64,000 bases of DNA. It comes from Haliclystus octoradiatus (lineage: Eukaryota; Cnidaria; Staurozoa; Stauromedusae; Haliclystidae). The notes beneath the pieces are model-generated. The model searched no databases and was not told the origin of the DNA. It saw only the letters and a list, made by a program, of their open reading frames with translations. Location of the stretch: the NCBI GenBank assembly GCA_916610825.1, contig OU744450.1, positions 14,454,489 through 14,518,488 on the forward strand, in the 5' to 3' direction. The position numbers were made by a program, and so were the translations under genes. Of this stretch, positions 18,629 through 57,600 are shown piece after piece; the first letter of the stretch is position 1; each line of letters starts with the position of its first letter.

Positions 18629-26859
<8,231 letters not shown>

Positions 26860-43300: not shown

Positions 43301-44883
43301 AGGAAATAATATCTTACCACCAAGAGCAGCGAAATCAGGGTCAATGTGTAGTGGATTATTGTCACCATTTAAACGATACAGAGCAGCTTGACTAGTAGAA
43401 ACAACTTCTTCAACAGTGACATCAGGTTTTCTATTTGGTTTGCTCACAATTGGTTTATCCTTATCACTCCTTTGTTTTCCTCCAAAATTACCAGAGCCTC
43501 GCAAATAGATTGAGAATTGATTGTGGCAGAGCAGGACACCATTGCTATCTTTAGTATAAATATCAGCAATAACTAAAGCCCCTTTGCCTTTGTCGCATAC
43601 ATCAGATATTTCACCTGAAAGTGTCAGTGTCCCTTCTGTTGGCATCGGCTTAAACCATTCAATGTATTGTTCACCATGCAACAGCTTAAAATTAAAAATA
43701 ATACAGGTATATTTACAATGGTAACTACAACGCAAAAAGTATTTAGGGCAAAATATATTCTTGTCCCCTATATTTTGGTAAAGAATCTGTCTTTAAATAT
43801 TTGTACACTAATAAGTCTAGTACTACCAATCATGCATTTGTATAACTCCATTTCTCAGTAGATTATCAAATGGCACTTCACAATATGAAGACACTTATCG
43901 CTAAGCCACCATACACACTGGGAAGCCAGTAGTGAATTTATTAGCAAATCTAGTTAGTAAAGCGCATTTTCAAGCTTCCAATTTTGGTGAGCAGTTTACG
44001 CTAGAATGAAGTGTTACTCTATGTAATTAAACAATAGAATATTTTATACCAAAAATCTTTCCGTTCCTAATTTCATAATCAAAACATGAAAACTACAACC
44101 GACTAGTAAATAGCTAAATAAATGTCTGTCAATCATCGAAAGCCCACTTTCCAAAAGCCCATAGACTCTACAAGATTTTTAACAGAAATAATGTCAAGGT
44201 ATCTTACAGCTGCATGGCCAATGTCCAAACTATAATTAGAAGCGATAACAATGAAGTCCTAAGTAACAATAGCAGCATTAAACCTAAAAAGACTTGCAAC
44301 TGCCGAAACAAAGACAATTGCCCATTGGATAACAAGTGCCTATCCTCAAGTCTCATTTACAAGGCCAACGTCACAACGGCACAGGACAGCATAGGTCAAA
44401 ACTACATCGGTTTAACTGAATGCACCTTTTAAAGAGAAACATGCCAATTACAAAATAAAATGGTCAATACTAGCCACATCGGCTGCCTACAGGAATAAAA
44501 CTAAAAAATGTAATCTATGTTTAACAGAGAAATTCCACATCATTTATTATAAACATGACAATTTATTATATATATTAGATATTATCTAATAGCAAAAAAT
44601 AGTGGTCAATATCATTTGAGTTGACAGAGCTAAATATAATAAAAGGAGTCAAAGACTACACATTCATAATTGTTACTAATAGTTTCATGCTTGCACAATC
44701 ATCAGATAAATAAACTAAATCTTTAGAATATTTGTCTGATGATTGCGTAAGCATGAAACTATTAGTAGCAATTATAAATGTGTAGTACTTGACTCCTTTT
44801 ATTACATATATATATATATATATATATACATAAGGCACTATCACATCTGACGATAGATAAATCTATCTTTATTATTATATTAT

Positions 44884-44943
<60 letters not shown>

Positions 44944-47900
44944 ATAAAGATAGATTTATCTATCGTCAGATGTGATAGTGCTCAATACCGATTAAACATT
45001 GGCAGAGCTGTAATACATAAGGATGGTGACTGAGTCAAAGAAAACACATTCTTAATTTCTGTTACTATAGTTTCACCCAGTGTGCGATCATCAGACAGTT
45101 GATACTCAATGAAAAATATACATGGTGACTCCTATTACATGCTATCATAAGTGCCGCAGCGCGTTATTGTTTTAATACAATAGTTGTCTTAACATACAAT
45201 GGTGCTATTGTTCCGTTTTGGTAATTAAGGCGTTAGGTAAATGAAATTGTTTCCTATTACAGCAGTTAAGTTAAATTATGTTTTAGTTTCTTTAAAATTA
45301 GATAAATAAAATTTATTCTCGTGACGGCATTTTGAGATTAGTTCAGATTTTTTATTAAGTAATGGCTCTTTTGAGCATATAATACAATATTTTTCCAATA
45401 AACATAGATGACATTTTTTAGATATATTATTGTATGGCTTTGCATTTGCAATAGTTGACCATTTGATTTTGTACTGGCTGTTGCTGTCTTTTAAGTCCCA
45501 AATATGCTTTGACAATTGCATGCTGCTGCTGTATTTTCTATATAGGTTTCTTAATACGTTTTAACCATATAGAAAACCCAACGACACACCATTATACATT
45601 AACACACAGTCTAACCACCCACCAACTATACTAAAACAAGTTTCAATAAACCAAAGAATTTCAGATTTATCTTCTAACAACACAATGTTTTTGAAAAGCA
45701 AACAAACATACGCTGATGCATTAAGAGCAAGCGGCCATGAAGCAAATCTTTCTTACCAACCACGCACTACAACATCAAACAGTAACAGAAGAAAAAGAAC
45801 CAGAAAAATCATATGGTTCAATCCGCCTTACAATAAGAGCGCTAAAATAAACATTGGCCGATCATTTTTAAATTTAGTCAAAAAACATTTTCCTAAATCA
45901 AATAAACTGAGCAAGATATTTAACCATAACACAATCAAAGTGAGTTATAGCTGTACTAACAACATGGACAAGATTCTCAAAAGTCATAACAACAAAATAA
46001 CCAATTATGAAAATAAAGCCACAGCCACACCTTGCAATTGCAGGGATAGAGATACTTGCCCACTCGAAAATAGGTGCCAATTAAAAGGTATCATCTACAA
46101 GGCTACAGTGACAACACCAGCCGACGAAGAGGGAAAGAGCTATATTGGTTTGACAGAAGACACATTCAAAGCATGTTACACATGAAGACACATGTTCAAA
46201 GCGAGTTTATTTGATTTAGGAAAATGTTTTTTGACTAAATTTAAAAATGATCGGCCAATGTTTATTTTAGCGCTCTTATTGTAAGGCGGATTGAACCATA
46301 TGATTTTTCTGGTTCTTTTTCTTCTGTTACTGTTTGATGTTGTAGTGCGTGGTTGGTAAGAAAGATTTGCTTCATGGCCGCTTGCTCTTAATGCATCAGC
46401 GTATGTTTGTTTGCTTTTCAAAAACATTGTGTTGTTAGAAGATAAATCTGAAATTCTTTGGTTTATTGAAACTTGTTTTAGTATAGTTGGTGGGTGGTTA
46501 GACTGTGTGTTAATGTATAATGGTGTGTCGTTGGGTTTTCTATATGGTTAAAACGTATTAAGAAACCTATATAGAAAATACAGCAGCAGCATGCAATTGT
46601 CAAAGCATATTTGGGACTTAAAAGACAGCAACAGCCAGTACAAAATCAAATGGTCAACTATTGCAAATGCAAAGCCATACAATAATATATCTAAAAAATG
46701 TCATCTATGTTTATTGGAAAAATATTGTATTATATGCTCAAAAGAGCCATTACTTAATAAAAAATCTGAACTAATCTCAAAATGCCGTCACGAGAATAAA
46801 TTTTATTTATCTAATTTTAAAGAAACTAAAACATAATTTAACTTAACTGCTGTAATAGGAAACAATTTCATTTACCTAACGCCTTAATTACCAAAACGGA
46901 ACAATAGCACCATTGTATGTTAAGGTCACTCTCTAGTCTAATTTTGGGAAAAAATAAAATTTTGTTGAGTTTGAGCTTTTCTTGTTTTTAGTAAGTATAA
47001 TTATTAAGGAACATGATTCTGAATTTTTTTTACTACAAAACGAACGAAAAACTACAAAATAATACATTTTCAAAGATCATACCTAGCATTTCTTGTTGTT
47101 TTCATGCTTTTTTGGTCCATTTCGTGCAAAACATTGCAAATTTGGAAAAAAATGGTAAATTTTGGTCATTTTTAGGCATAAGACATTCATTTTGTTGGTA
47201 ATTTATCGCTGTTTCCAATTTTTCAGGCCATTTTGTTGTAGCCTCTGCCATTAAATCGATATTGGCTTCTAAATGAGACCTTGACCAACACCCTATCAGA
47301 CAATGGAATTTCTAAACATCAAGTCGCTCCAATATTCCAAACAAAAGGTTTTTTTTATATTGTCCAATAGAAGTGCTGTATTGAAGCTACTTCCACACTG
47401 CATTCAAAAGGGTTCAAAAGTGATAGTTTTTCACGAATGTAATCGTTTTGAAGTAGTTTTTATTGCTTTCAACTGTGTATCCGAAGCCTTGAAATATTTA
47501 TTGATTTCTTTTTCGTGTTTATAATGTCTTCTGGTGATTCATCAAATGTTAGAAGGAAATTTTCTGTCAAAAGGAGGTGTAAAAGGAAGTTATTTCCAGC
47601 TAAAAAATCCCTCAACGAGAAACAACAGGAATCAGCTGATTTTGATGAGCAACCTGGAGCAAGCTCGAAAAAACTGAAGTTATCAGAAAAAGATATTATA
47701 ATTGAGGATAAATGTCATGGATTCAGGCTTGTCAATTTAAAACTACTTGAATTATTGATCAATGAAGCTTCGATTTGTAAATCATGCAAACAAGGGAGAC
47801 TATGTTTACAAGAAGATTCATCAAGAAAAATGGGTTTGTCTTCCATGATTATGCTAACCTGTGAATCATGTTCAGCTATCACTGAATCATACACTTCCCC

Positions 47901-50035
47901 TATAGCTGAAGGATCTAGAGGTTATGAGATCAACAGAAGAGCTGTATTTGGAATGTCAGAAATTGGTGGTGGCAAAACTTCACTCGAAAAGTTATGTGCA
48001 ATTCTGAATATGCCCGAAGCAATGACTGAAACCTCCTACATAGACAATTTGAACATTGTGAAAGAGTCTCTTGAACAATGCGCATCATCCAGTATGCTAA
48101 ATGCAGCTAAAGAGGAGCATAACTTGCAGGATGTACAGCAAAGAAAAATTGCTGACTGTAAAGCTATGTTCGATGGGTCATGGCGCAAACGGGGCTTCTC
48201 CTCCCTGCAAGGAGTTGTCACAGCTATATCGGTTGAATCAGGCAAAGTTCTAGACTACGAAAGCATGAACAAATTGTGTTCTTCTTGTTCACGTTGGGGC
48301 TCAAAACCTGAAAGTTTAAAAAAACAATCCTGGAATGCAAATCATATATGCCCAGTAAACTATGATGGGTCTGCCCCTTCCATGGAGCCGGAAGGTATAA
48401 AGCGAATGTATGAAAGATCGGTAAAGGATAAGAAACTCAGATATACGGGATATATTGGTGATGGAGATAGTAAGTCGTTCTCCAATATAAAAGAAAGTAT
48501 GCCTTATGGGAATAAAATTGACATTAAAAAGCATGAATGCGTCGGACATGTTCAAAAGCGCATGGGCAACGCTTTGCGAAAATTGAAAACACAATGGGGA
48601 AAGAAAAAATTGCCTGATGGTAAAACTATTGGTGGACGTGGTAGGCTGACAAAAGACCTTATAGGTAAGCTGCAAATATATTATGGTCTGGCTATTAGAA
48701 GAAATAAATATAACTTAGAAGCAATGAGAAAAGAGGTTTGGGCTGGTCTATATCACACAGCTTCGACAGATGATAAACCACAGCACCAGAACTGTCCAAC
48801 TGGGAAAGAATCATGGTGCAAATACCAAAAAGCTGTTGCCAATAAAGAAACGTACTCCCATGTTAAAACTATACCTGAGTCAATTGTAGCTGTCCTGAAA
48901 CCTACATATGAAAGATTGGGCAAAGACGAAATACTCGAAGGATGTCTTGGTGGCTATACGCAAAATTCTTGTGAGGCGCTGAATCATCTTATCTGGTCTA
49001 GATGTCCTAAAGGTGTGTCATCTGGGAGAGCTCACCTCGATGCTGCTTGTGCTAGTGCAGTCACTGTATTCAATGATGGAACCTCAGCCTTAAATAATGT
49101 GTTAGTGGCCATGGGAGTAGCACCAGGACAATTCATGTTGGCGCAAACACGTAAGATTGACCAGAAAAGAATTCGTGAAAGTGATAGAAATGCATCAACC
49201 ATCCAAAAAAAAATCAGACAAGCACAGAGACAGTCGAAAAAAGCAGTAGAGGATGAGGTATTAGAGGAAGAAGGAGTTGCTTATGAAGCAGGTGGTTTTT
49301 AATCCAATTACAACTAAAATATAGACAGATAAACATAAACTTTGACTTTGACCGCGATTTTCTCAATTTATGATTTAGAGCGATTTTCAATGACCTTGAC
49401 GGATGTAGCAAACTCATTTGTAAAGCTATTGCTTTCAAATTTGGATTATTTATTTATTACTGTATTATCCATGCAACTATAGTAACAGAATTTTTATAAC
49501 ATATCTAAATATTTTTTAATAAATTTTTTTTGAAACAATCGATTTACAAATTTCGTGACGTCAAGTTACAAATCTGTTTTTTTTTTTATAACTTGCTAAT
49601 TAAAAAATCTAATTCTATAGTTGCATAATGCAACTCTTAAGGAATACTTGTACTGAATTTGGGGTCCAAAGCTACTTCCCCTGAACCTGGATCCTTGTCA
49701 GGCCAAAGGCTATATTTCGTGCGTTTTACACCAGAGAAGCTATTTTTAGACCAAAATTTTTAGATCCAGCTCAATTTTGATGGGACACAAACTGATTTGC
49801 CACAAAATAACAATTTTAGTGACTTTGGAAATGGTAGAAAAATGTTAGACTAGAGAGTGACCTTAAGACAACTATTGTATTAAAACAATAACGCGCTGCG
49901 GCACTTATGATAGCATGTAATAGGAGTCACCATGTATATTTTTCATTGAGTATCAACTGTCTGATGATCGCACACTGCGTGAAACTATAGTAACAGAAAT
50001 TAAGAATGTGTTTTCTTTGACTCAGTCACCATCCT

Positions 50036-50073
<38 letters not shown>

Positions 50074-50310
50074 AATAGTAGATCAAAGATCACGAGTTTA
50101 TTCCGTTACTCTGAGTTTCGCGTAAAGACGCTCTTCAGACGGTTTTATTAAATCAAACCGTCTGAAGAGCGTCTTTACGCGAAACTCAGAGTAACGGAAT
50201 AAACTCGTGATCTTTGATCTACTACTCGTGATCTTTGATCTACTATTTATATCGCTCTACTTTTAGCATTGAGCACTCAAATTGATGTTTTGCCCACACA
50301 ATTACTTTAT

Positions 50311-52696: not shown

Positions 52697-54630
52697 ATGG
52701 CGGACGATATCAAGGGAAAGTAAGTTTGAGATTTTTACTTATTTGTTGTAATTTGTTTAGCTAATATGGATAAAAGATTGATTTTATTATTGATATGCGT
52801 GTATCAGGGTGAATTCTTGGTTTTAGTGATCAGACTAACTGTGGGCCTAAACGTAACTTTGGCAGGCTGCAAGGTAGGCTACTCTTTCAGTTCAGTCAAC
52901 TCAGAGGAATCAGACTCACGTTTTAGCATGATTAATCTACTAAAGATGTCTACAGTGAAAATTGTTTTCAATGCAGTATTATGATGTTCATAAATCTATG
53001 AAATCATAAGACGATCATATGACGATTCTCCATGCGGAAAAACAATATTCTATAGATGAATGTATGTAATGAATGTAAGTAATGTTAATACTCTTTATTA
53101 TGATAATGGTAGGCCGTGTCTGCTGACATTACAGGGAGAGATGCTAAGGGCTACTATGGCCGTTAGTCAGAGCTCTTTGATACAACAGACACGACCGTAC
53201 AGTAAGACAACAAGAGGTAAAAGAAGACGTTTACGTGATACAGTTTACACACCTATAGATTTACAGGAAATGATTAACAATAGACAAATATGCGATGACG
53301 TGAATACAATATAAAACCACTACAAATACGGTTCCAGGAATGATGAAAATATTATCTCGAGGGCAGCTCTGTCGTACTGTGCAAACTGGAAGATTCTGAG
53401 TTGTGATCGACTGGCATACTGGGACATTAACGAGATGGGATATTAAGCGATGAAGGCATGTGAAAGTTTTTATGGAAAATGGAGAATAGAGATCAGTTTT
53501 ATGTGAGGACATTTTAAAGCAAGGTGGGACATTGAAAAGGGAATAATAACCGAGTTTGACTGTATTTTGGATCTGTAAAATTATAATAGGGTTGCCATGG
53601 TTGATATATATATATATATATATATATAGAGTATAAAACAGAGACGAGGCAAAGCCTTTTCCGTAACTCGGAGTTTCACGCTTTTATTGCGATCTTCAGA
53701 CGGTGATACTAAAAAATTAAAAACATACGATTACTCCTAAACATACATACATGAGTGCGATATCTAGCTATTGTTATCTACAATGGGTTACTGATAAATT
53801 AATATTTTTATTGTTTGTTTACAAAGGCATATTGTTGTAAATTTCTTAATGTCTACGATTTACCGGATTTAAAATTTCCAAGGTAAAATTTGTTCTCATG
53901 CCGGCATTTGGAAATAAGTTCTGATCTTTTGTTGAGTAGGTTAGGCGAACGTGATGTTATAATGTGAAATTTCTCCGTAAGGCATAGGTTACATTTATTT
54001 GAGATGTTAGTGTATGCGCTAGCAGTAGCTAATATAGACCAATTAATTTTAAATTCTGCGTCACTGAGCTATCAAAATTAATATGGAATCTCAAAGAAAG
54101 TAACGCAGAATTTAAAATTAATTGGTCTATATTAGCTACTGCTAGCGCATACACTAACATCTCAAATAAATGTAACCTATGCCTTACGGAGAAATTTCAC
54201 ATTATAACATCACGTTCGCCTAACCTACTCAACAAAAGATCAGAACTTATTTCCAAATGCCGGCATGAGAACAAATTTTACCTTAGAAATTTTAAATCCG
54301 GTAAATCGTAGACATTAAGAAATTTACAACAATATGCCTTTGTAAACAAACAATAAAAATATTAATTTATCAGTAACCCATTGTAGATAACAATAGCTAG
54401 ATATCGCACTCATGTATGTATGTTTAGGAGTAATCGTATGTTTTTAATTTTTTAGTATCACCGTCTGAAGATAGCAATAAAAGCGTGAAACTCCGAGTTA
54501 CGGAAAAGGCTTTGCCTCGTCTCTGTTTTATACTCTATATTATGCTCTGTCCTAAAAAACATTGAGCACTTTCATATACATGTGTGTATAAGAGTTCACA
54601 CTCAATACAATTAATTTTTTAATTAATTAT

Positions 54631-54696
<66 letters not shown>

Positions 54697-57600
54697 CAGC
54701 AGACAAGTACATGTTTCTGGCCATTAGCCTTCATCAGTACTGCTCAGTGAGCGAACAAGGAACTGACTTCAGTATACACCTAAGTCAAGATGAGTCATAA
54801 ATGTGGTGAAAAAATTCATCACATGAAAAAAACATCTGTGCCATACCAGAGTGCTCAAACTACCGAAGTAGTGGGCAATGCATAATGCAAATAGTATAGA
54901 CACATCCCGAGTCGATAGTGCTCAAAATTGCGCATGCGCAATTGAGACATACATAGCAGCAGACAAGTACATGTTTCTGGCCATTAGCCTTCATCAGTAC
55001 TGCTCAGTGAGCGAACAAGGAACTGACTTCAGTATACACCTAAGTCAAGATGAGTCATAAATGTGGTGAAAAAATTCATCACATGAAAAAAACATCTGTG
55101 CCATACCAGAGTGCTCAAACTACCGAAGTAGTGGGCAATGCATAATGCAAATAGTATAGACACATCCCGAGTCGATAGTGCTCAAAATTGCGCATGCGCA
55201 ATTGAGACATACATAGCAGCAGACAAGTACATGTTTCTGGCCATTAGCCTTCATCAGTACTGCTCAGTGAGCGAACAAGGAACTGACTTCAGTATACACC
55301 TAAGTCAAGATGAGTCATAAATGTGGTGAAAAAATTCATCACATGAAAAAAACATCTGTGCCATACCAGAGTGCTCAAACTACCGAAGTAGTGGGCAATG
55401 CATAATGCAAATAGTATAGACACATCCCGAGTCGATAGTGCTCAAAATTGCGCATGCGCAATTGAGACATACATAGCAGCAGACAAGTACATGTTTCTGG
55501 CCATTAGCCTTCATCAGTACTGCTCAGTGAGCGAACAAGGAACTGACTTCAGTATACACCTAAGTCAAGATGAGTCATAAATGTGGTGAAAAAATTCATC
55601 ACATGAAAAAAACATCTGTGCCATACCAGAGTGCTCAAACTACCGAAGTAGTGGGCAATGCATAATGCAAATAGTATAGACACATCCCGAGTCGATAGTG
55701 CTCAAAATTGCGCATGCGCAATTGAGACATACATAGCAGCAGACAAGTACATGTTTCTGGCCATTAGCCTTCATCAGTACTGCTCAGTGAGCGAACAAGG
55801 AACTGACTTCAGTATACACCTAAGTCAAGATGAGTCATAAATGTGGTGAAAAAATTCATCACATGAAAAAAACATCTGTGCCATACCAGAGTGCTCAAAC
55901 TACCGAAGTAGTGGGCAATGCATAATGCAAATAGTATAGACACATCCCGAGTCGATAGTGCTCAAAATTGCGCATGCGCAATTGAGACATACATAGCAGC
56001 AGACAAGTACATGTTTCTGGCCATTAGCCTTCATCAGTACTGCTCAGTGAGCGAACAAGGAACTGACTTCAGTATACACCTAAGTCAAGATGAGTCATAA
56101 ATGTGGTGAAAAAATTCATCACATGAAAAAAACATCTGTGCCATACCAGAGTGCTCAAACTACCGAAGTAGTGGGCAATGCATAATGCAAATAGTATAGA
56201 CACATCCCGAGTCGATAGTGCTCAAAATTGCGCATGCGCAATTGAGACATACATAGCAGCAGACAAGTACATGTTTCTGGCCATTAGCCTTCATCAGTAC
56301 TGCTCAGTGAGCGAACAAGGAACTGACTTCAGTATACACCTAAGTCAAGATGAGTCATAAATGTGGTGAAAAAATTCATCACATGAAAAAAACATCTGTG
56401 CCATACCAGAGTGCTCAAACTACCGAAGTAGTGGGCAATGCATAATTCAAATAGTATAGACACATCCCGAGTCGATAGTGCTCAAAATTGCGCATGCGCA
56501 ATTGAGACATACATAGCAGCAGACAAGTACATGTTTCTGGCCATTAGCCTTCATCAGTACTGCTCAGTGAGCGAACAAGGAACTGACTTCAGTATACACC
56601 TAAGTCAAGATGAGTCATAAATGTGGTGAAAAAATTCATCACATGAAAAAAACATCTGTGCCATACCAGAGTGCTCAAACTACCGAAGTAGTGGGCAATG
56701 CATAATGCAAATAGTATAGACACATCCCGAGTCGATAGTGCTCAAAATTGCGCATGCGCAATTGAGACATACATAGCAGCAGACAAGTACATGTTTCTGG
56801 CCATTAGCCTTCATCAGTACTGCTCAGTGAGCGAACAAGGAACTGACTTCAGTATACACCTAAGTCAAGATGAGTCATAAATGTGGTGAAAAAATTCATC
56901 ACATGAAAAAAACATCTGTGCCATACAATGAAATATATATATTTCATTCGGTTGTACTATAAATAAAAATATACAACAAGGTATGCAGACATGGTTTGAT
57001 AAAATTGGGGGAATCTGGGACTGAGAGTCCCGGAAGGCTAGCACAAGTTCAGAACCCGGGTTCAGAAGGAAGCAGAAGAAGTAGTTGTATTCAAGTTTTT
57101 TTTTAATCTGAAGAAAAATCAGTTGCTTACATTTCTTGTACAGAGAAGTAAAACTGTGCAGGTTTCATCATATGCTTTATGACAATAACCATAAAATAAA
57201 AAGATGTGAAAACATAAACTTGCATGATGAAATCACAAGAAAAAGTTTGGAAGGAAAAATTGGAATCCCGGAAGGAAAAATATTTTATCGGACGCTGTAT
57301 GCATGCAGGGTTCCTAAAAAGTAGGCATTCAATTGCTGCAACCAAAAACTAAAATTAAATTGAAAGGAGTAAGCTTGAGAAAACTAAAATCTAAGATTGA
57401 AAACTAAAGATAAAAAGACAACTGTCACTCATTCGTGTCACTCAGCCTATTCAAGTTTCATGTCATTTTTATCTTATCTTAATATAGTACCATGAACATT
57501 TGTAACCTAATTACTAGATAAATAACAAATGTTCACTAAATTAAAAACTTGCAGTATGTCATCCAAATAAACAAGCACTTGTGCTTACGGATAACTACAA

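Follow-up and report, generated by a model that had tools for sequence, protein, structure and literature searches.

The window analysed here, a stretch of 64,000 nucleotides from Haliclystus octoradiatus (contig OU744450.1), contains a tandem array of 260-bp units, each with a hammerhead-shaped motif, next to a TA microsatellite. The question raised by this locus is how such an array came to be written there: by which enzyme, from which template and from which starting base. Metazoan retrozymes and a proposed link between them and Penelope-like elements (PLEs) are already known (PMC7229834; PMC7761336), and expression of their circular RNAs has been shown (PMC7229834). As far as these accounts go, the mobilising element was deduced from co-existence and shared features (PMC7229834), and no motif reveals the partner of a retrozyme (PMC7761336). 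Our reading, to which we give a probability of roughly two in three, is that the array represents a single insertion from a retrozyme family of the non-autonomous, non-LTR type that is mobilised by a Penelope-like element, probably via circular RNA. The genome-wide anatomy of the insertions (junctions, targets and a two-part signal) supports this reading, and with it the proposal of the initial annotation that the array is retrozyme-like and linked to PLEs. The features of the array are as follows.

54696–56926, minus strand: retrozyme array, 8.6 units of 260 bp; the RNA 3′ end (left end in the window) adjoins a (TA)n tract.
54634–54695, no strand: (TA)31 microsatellite, which served as target where the fixed 3′ end is joined; 44 of 58 insertions have a similar flank.
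54695–54745, minus strand: hammerhead-shaped motif of the RNA-3′-most unit, predicted cut between 54702 and 54701.
56775–56825, minus strand: last of the hammerhead-shaped motifs, which recur every 260 bp and total nine in the motif scan.

Tandem Repeats Finder places the repeat at 54689–56926, with a period of 260, 8.6 copies and 99% matches. The eight complete units are on average 0.25 changes apart, and the array is thus homogeneous, in agreement with the earlier description of a 260-bp unit repeated 8.6 times and hardly diverged. The unit is 41.5% in GC, and the ORF scan identified no frame of 150 aa or more within the array. A recent expansion of the array had also been suggested; its homogeneity stands, but expansion is one option, and other histories fit equally: a circle may have been reverse-transcribed in one long run, or units may have been exchanged unequally afterwards.

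On the minus strand, each unit reads CTGATGA, helix II, GAAA, helix III (short) and GTC, with helix I as the closing stem. The motif scan, which demands helix I, CTGANGA, helix II, GAAA, helix III, NUH and helix I, identified the nine array motifs and no others on both strands of the window, and 0 of 20,000 dinucleotide-shuffled units contain a hammerhead-shaped motif. CTGATGAAGGCTAATGGCCAGAAAC has exactly nine minus-strand copies in the window, compared to a mean of 0.00 in 100 shuffles. The nine minus-strand motifs of the initial annotation were therefore all recovered; its six-pair helix I needs correction, as we count seven pairs, one of them G-U. In helix II, a basal A.A mismatch precedes three pairs, and helix III is composed of three pairs and a near-palindromic loop. 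Through this near-palindromic helix III, two copies of the motif could pair with a computed energy of −9.0 kcal/mol, an arrangement that would be compatible with a dimeric active form, as described for amphibian retrozymes (PMC7229834).

The covariance-model check suggested with the annotation went against it: Rfam hammerhead families gave no match to the array, neither at the gathering score nor at E ≤ 10, and the Rfam matches near the array are low-complexity TA and one weak snoRNA match only. As the hammerhead shape is present but Rfam does not match it, we treat the motif as a putative ribozyme, whose catalysis we infer from sequence. The hammerhead-like motif of one PLE locus (L055) is also far below the cut-off of Rfam family HH9, thus the Rfam hammerhead models may be insensitive here. 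Among the 127 copies of the motif found in the genome, 92 are identical. Compared to the rest of the unit, the ribozyme core displays no clear deficit of substitutions (0.31 versus 0.42 variant loci per site, 29 loci). Covariation within the ribozyme is unusable as evidence, as the copies are too alike, and excess RNA structure was rejected as evidence, with z values of −0.5 for the predicted circle and 0.33 for the isolated motif relative to shuffles. A search of viral contigs for the ribozyme core gave no exact match.

The initial annotation had proposed comparing the unit with the rest of the genome (262 Mb in 33 contigs), and this comparison located dispersed copies. With up to two mismatches, a 17-nt piece across the cut site (the ribozyme 3′ segment) has 981 genome matches, compared to 22 for the reversed control; the full-unit similarity search gave at least 113 matches, with the best 40 of 1095 candidates scored. 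The element is dispersed and mobile, on many contigs. For the analysis of junctions we used three sets of loci from this one genome: 38 high-scoring loci by full-unit similarity plus the window; 20 loci on contig C1, taken in the order of the exact-match list; and 13 loci, some near the end of C1 and others near the beginning of contig C2. Three of these 13 had only the 5′ side read and do not enter the 3′ junction count, for which insertions were counted one per locus (n = 69). Two kinds of variant were observed: locus L041 (G000:C7:11943348-11946378) is an array of 11.7 unit lengths with mixed variants of 247–260 bp, unlike the homogeneous arrays elsewhere, and in L014 and L023 every complete unit is 261 bp, a possible subfamily.

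The 3′ junction is fixed. Read in the RNA sense, 65 of the 69 insertions end after GTCTGCTG followed by C or A, 6 nt past the predicted cut; the stop sequence is CTTGTC-TGCTGC, with a TGCTGA variant in L042. The same stop was found in 36 of 39 loci from the full-unit similarity set and in 29 of 30 exact-17-mer loci; since the 17-mer itself ends in TGCTGC, the latter loci could end later but never earlier. Among the four exceptions, L029 is 2 nt short, L034 and L044 end elsewhere in the unit, and L089 was not read to the end. In L038, seven further bases past the stop also agree with the unit. Kept outside this count are the separate first block in L025, whose end lies at another position, and the opposite-strand matches in L010, L013, L028, L043 and L044. 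The sequence at the stop is repeated inside the array.

54949–54955, minus strand: TATGTAT of the first internal unit, the initiation site of reverse transcription, which lies 6 nt beyond the predicted cut on its 3′ side; it is present in each complete unit and marks the fixed 3′ junction.

Beyond the stop the next bases are TA in 53 of 55 insertions with a fixed stop, and in 44 of 58 insertions the first 12 bases of the 3′ flank consist of TA/TAA microsatellite, compared to 0.5–0.6% of window positions. The microsatellite stands on both sides at many loci and is missing at the 3′ junction of L015, L085, L088, L096 and L127; it is therefore the target and not a tail. Direct repeats of at least 9 nt in the flanks were observed in 42 of 58 insertions, whereas 200 swaps of the flanks gave 34% on average and 47% at most; many of the flank repeats are simple repeats. 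Where the target has an irregular base (L033, L046, L080 and L081) or is non-simple (L088), the target duplications are 12–14 bp in length. These junctions are those of target-primed reverse transcription that starts at one fixed position within the unit. The window also contains, at 22143–22417, 275 bp of perfect (TTA)n, which is the kind of sequence into which these elements insert.

Several PLE features are located at lower window coordinates than the array.

45685–46185, plus strand: frame taken, from its motif, as a shortened GIY-YIG endonuclease of a PLE family A copy.
44936–45281, minus strand: PLE family A 3′ pseudo-LTR copy, which ends at initiation site 2 and is joined to (TA)n.
44969–45020, minus strand: PLE family A tail hairpin, with initiation site 1 (TATGTAT) directly 5′ of it.
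49863–50042, plus strand: PLE family A copy, which ends at initiation site 1 and is joined to (TA)n.
54532–54578, plus strand: tail hairpin of Penelope type, immediately outside the (TA)n tract in which the array lies.

We take the frame at 45685–46185 to be GIY-YIG Penelope-like from its motif; a Pfam search of this frame gave no match. Used as a query, it gave at least 151 genome matches (the best 150 of 1744 candidates scored), with identity groups near 98%, 79% and 70%. The open frame of the window copy is 206 codons, compared to up to 947 in other copies. As it is shortened, the helper would have to be a different copy, either of this family or of a related one: mobilisation by the PLE machinery next door, as first suggested, holds for the link to PLEs, which the insertion anatomy supports, but not for the window copy as the literal donor. 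Other observations in the neighbourhood are a second Penelope-like GIY-YIG fragment of a different family at 44295–44430 (CNCRNKDNCPLDNKC ... YIGLTE), a 595-codon open frame at 47515–49302 that matches a Mutator-like transposase (PF20700, E = 8.6e-82), and, at 53800–54350 and near a Penelope-type tail hairpin, a long near-perfect inverted repeat with arms of ∼250 bp by eye; a degenerate hammerhead-like sequence, also judged by eye, lies near that repeat at ∼54461–54503. At 50203–50285, two repeated copies of ACTCGTGATCTTTGATCTACT stand in front of a Penelope-type tail hairpin; a similar sequence lies beside retrozyme L038 and PLE copy L069 and is possibly another non-autonomous family on the same signal. 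A host gene was also compared with solved structures, which identify it as an HSD17B4-type enzyme, and a protein search listed fungal and unnamed matches.

Like the retrozyme, PLE family A ends at fixed internal positions. Counting distinct alignments at 95% identity that are not cut by the end of the locus, 23 of 26 have their 3′ ends at two internal sites, 11 at site 1 and 12 at site 2; of the remaining three, two extend as far as the reference does and the third, L073, is rearranged. A TA/TAA microsatellite is joined to 17 of these 23 ends. For families B and C, ten stretches were compared: seven terminate immediately 5′ of the same tail element, two extend beyond it, and the last gave no information. 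Hammerhead-like motifs were identified in PLE tails at 4 of 30 loci by scan, and by eye in families A to C; that of family A has a helix III too small to pass the scan. Rfam gave one weak HH9 match on six PLE loci (L055, 22 versus 52 bits) and many sub-threshold miRNA matches, taken to be inverted pseudo-LTR palindromes. Our own ribozyme model R1 matched none of 22 PLE loci.

The start site itself is part of a likely signal, found in the retrozyme and in the tail of PLE family A.

54914–54955, minus strand: two-part signal TATGTAT-N24-TGAGCACTATC, also present in the PLE family A tail with a spacer of 28.

PLE A site 1 reads TATGTAT-N28-TGAGCACTATC, and the spaced pattern has 397 genome matches and 0 in the reversed control; among the about 100 matches listed, every one is PLE A or retrozyme. 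Because the signal was itself found by comparing retrozyme and PLE sequences, the tests on it are post hoc. The longest word common to both is 12 nt, at offsets of 30 and 34 nt, and this length was reached in 1 of 5000 shuffles, offset disregarded. A PWM from 22 PLE-type tail clusters, built without the retrozyme, finds its best retrozyme site at that place, above 1992 of 2000 shuffles, in a test that is post hoc in that the tails had been gathered with a word from the comparison. A PLE-type tail lies within 150 nt of 14 of 58 retrozyme insertions, compared to 8 of 637 background windows. Among the PLE families seen, A shares the retrozyme signal best.

In most of ten folded examples, the PLE tail is composed of GCUC, an inner stem, a loop, a 2-nt bulge and GAGCACU. 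The outer GCTC/GAGC pairs were demanded by the tail search, and the inner pairs alone count as evidence. The inner stem co-varies over the 22 tail clusters, with a mean of 3.55 contiguous pairs compared to 2.61 (maximum 3.36 of 5000) when the 3′ sides are re-dealt; the alignment covariation score (3 of 500 shuffles) agrees. Judged from these alignments, the co-varying hairpin 3′ of the initiation site, found in many otherwise different tails, may be a protein-binding element of PLE RNA. The retrozyme folds to the same hairpin shape at the same place, with a 5′ arm of UCUCAA versus the strongly conserved GCUCUG of PLEs. The covariance model R2, built from PLEs only (21 tail hairpins, that is the 22 tails minus L063, a probable chance match), gave no retrozyme match in the window at E ≤ 10; with filters off it placed nothing at the expected position, its best score being 7.6 bits elsewhere. 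In sequence, the landing site and the 3′ arm are common to retrozyme and PLE tails, the 5′ arm is not.

The position of the start site limits the possible templates. Since reverse transcription starts 6 nt 3′ of the cut, a cut linear monomer would yield 6 nt only, an insertion that would be invisible to the searches used. The observed insertions pass the cut, and their template was therefore a closed circle or an uncut multimer. Their 5′ ends are scattered from 17 to 500 nt upstream in 33 loci (three of which show just the first unit of longer arrays; longer loci already in the other sets are not part of these 33), with no wall at 260, and insertions in the high-scoring set reach 11.7 unit lengths. 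Units within an array differ by 1.87 changes (17 arrays), compared to 4.90 on label permutation (minimum 3.65 of 1000). Such likeness is as expected if one circle is copied repeatedly; later exchange gives the same result. The L041 array is heterogeneous inside, with a mean of 8.6 changes.

On C1 and part of C2, 40 insertions reach the start site again after a full unit. Sixteen stop near it, in the stretch that extends from the start site to slightly beyond the cut (the loose script rule is +6 to −11); L089 stops ∼11 nt past the cut by eye, and 23 continue for at least 25 nt. Read loci supplied 32 of the 40, of which 31 were classified by script, the sequence of L130 being truncated at that point; the other eight, L130 and the extra L010 array were taken from match lists. 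Between 1.3 and 19.2 Mb of C1, 12 of 28 insertions reach 260 nt, which corresponds to an end rate of 4.1% per 12 nt. At this general rate, 1.6 of 40 would stop near the start, compared to the 16 observed. On a circle, the enzyme is expected to be blocked when it meets its start point again after one round; on a linear multimer, a similar stop could come from bound protein or from RNA structure. Arrays of about eight units or more are found in the window, at L024, at C1:29911695 and at L041, and four arrays this long may exceed what a constant drop-off rate yields. We do not claim 5′ ends exactly at the cut as proof of cleavage in vivo, because L107, L108, L109 and L114 end ∼3 nt upstream by eye, and several other 5′ ends lie at the initiation site.

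Taken together, we propose that in minus-strand transcripts the hammerhead would cut after GUC and ligation would give circles of 260 nt. A PLE protein would recognise the RNA through the hairpin ending in GAGCACUAUC, both the enzyme and the recognition being putative, and would nick TA-rich DNA, whose 3′ TA end could pair with the UAUGUAU beside the hairpin. Reverse transcription would then begin at UAUGUAU, the fixed start seen in the junctions. A cut linear monomer would be a dead template, so a closed circle or an uncut multimer would be needed; drop-off of the enzyme anywhere would leave fragments, and more than one round would write tandem arrays.

The same PLE machinery could instead copy a linear, uncut multimer transcribed from an existing array, with a ribozyme motif that is weak or irrelevant to insertion. 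No circle is needed in this case, the A.A mismatch of helix II and the absent Rfam match allow a weak ribozyme, and in the Anolis PLE assay hammerhead-dead RNA still inserts (PMC11167929). However, the gathering of 5′ ends at the start site after a single round (16 of 40) then requires an extra cause, such as bound protein or RNA structure, and the identity of the motif in 92 of 127 copies also speaks against it; we consider a linear template unlikely. Far less probable still is a classical satellite that spreads as DNA, through unequal exchange or through circular DNA that enters microsatellites. Tandem, homogeneous units in long arrays suit a satellite, and microsatellite flanks could recombine, but one end of the insertions is fixed while the other is random, many copies are far under one unit (17–240 nt), and target duplications and dispersal over many contigs do not fit.

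A further alternative is a SINE-like element moved by a LINE with a simple-repeat 3′ end. A fixed 3′ end at a simple repeat, 5′ truncation and duplications of similar length are LINE-like in general, and all three are present here. However, the microsatellite is target rather than tail, as judged from its presence on both sides at many loci and its absence from the five junctions named above, and PLE A has the same target type and the same likely signal. We therefore hold movement by a LINE to be quite improbable, and retain the retrozyme mobilised by a PLE as the preferred reading.

Compared to the metazoan non-LTR retrozymes as presented in PMC7229834, the element is similar in its 260-bp tandem repeats, putative type I hammerhead topology (core and three helices, yet no Rfam match), weak helix III, GC content below 50%, absence of a long ORF and PLEs in the same genome; the repeat length also lies within their range of about 150–450 bp, dispersed pieces extend from sub-unit size to multimers, and the duplications of 12–14 bp agree with their target duplications of more than 4 bp. 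The base of helix II is an A.A mismatch here, versus U.U in HHR_Amex2 (PMC7229834). Different from that account, as far as it goes, the junctions give a fixed start 6 nt past the predicted cut, together with a likely sequence signal shared with a PLE. The Anolis element Poseidon provides the closest comparison for the PLEs. In PLEs, reverse transcription is initiated at internal sites, with a preference for AT-rich DNA (PMC11167929); like Poseidon, PLE A is of GIY-YIG type with two fixed internal 3′ ends (the 'tail') and AT-rich targets, and hammerhead-like motifs are found in PLE tails (PMC11167929). The two-site behaviour of Poseidon was shown in vitro (PMC11167929), whereas the PLE A sites come from genomic junctions. 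Unlike PLEs such as Poseidon (PMC11167929), the retrozyme has no long ORF, and its start lies 6 nt from the cut, versus a few tens of nt further in PLE A by eye. The conserved hairpin just 3′ of the start site is absent from the Poseidon account in the part available (PMC11167929).

Plant LTR retrozymes are likewise non-autonomous and hammerhead-bearing, with a proposed circular RNA intermediate (PMC4918200); they differ in their type III hammerheads, LTRs, circles of 600–800 nt, 4-bp target duplications and Gypsy partner (PMC7229834; PMC7761336). The Schistosoma W-elements are also satellite-like repeats with hammerhead motifs and suspected mobility (PMC8490949), but, within the available part of that source, duplication is shown for one exemplary element and no partner element is named (PMC8490949). 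A literature search of titles and abstracts, with subscription papers mostly outside its coverage, found no case in which the partner was derived from insertion junctions. The retrozyme kind is thus already known, and the junction evidence bears on the open question of the partner.

From the junctions of a single genome, the start site, the target, the likely signal and a candidate partner family are obtained. A wider proposition, for which we see the balance as even, is that metazoan retrozymes are SINE-like parasites of PLEs. They would carry a copied initiation signal, placed 6 nt downstream of the cut and made up of a TA-rich landing site and a hairpin that has a 2-nt bulge and ends in GAGCACUAUC. 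Self-cleavage would destroy the linear monomer as template, and only ligated circles would insert; the PLE enzyme, rolling round the circle, would write arrays and hesitate at the start point after a turn. If true, this would explain how hammerhead satellites turn into tandem arrays, and would give the reason for a ribozyme in such elements, namely that circles are the sole productive template. PLEs are a class of retrotransposons whose mechanism became accessible in vitro only recently (PMC11167929), and the proposed hairpin would provide a cis element for them.
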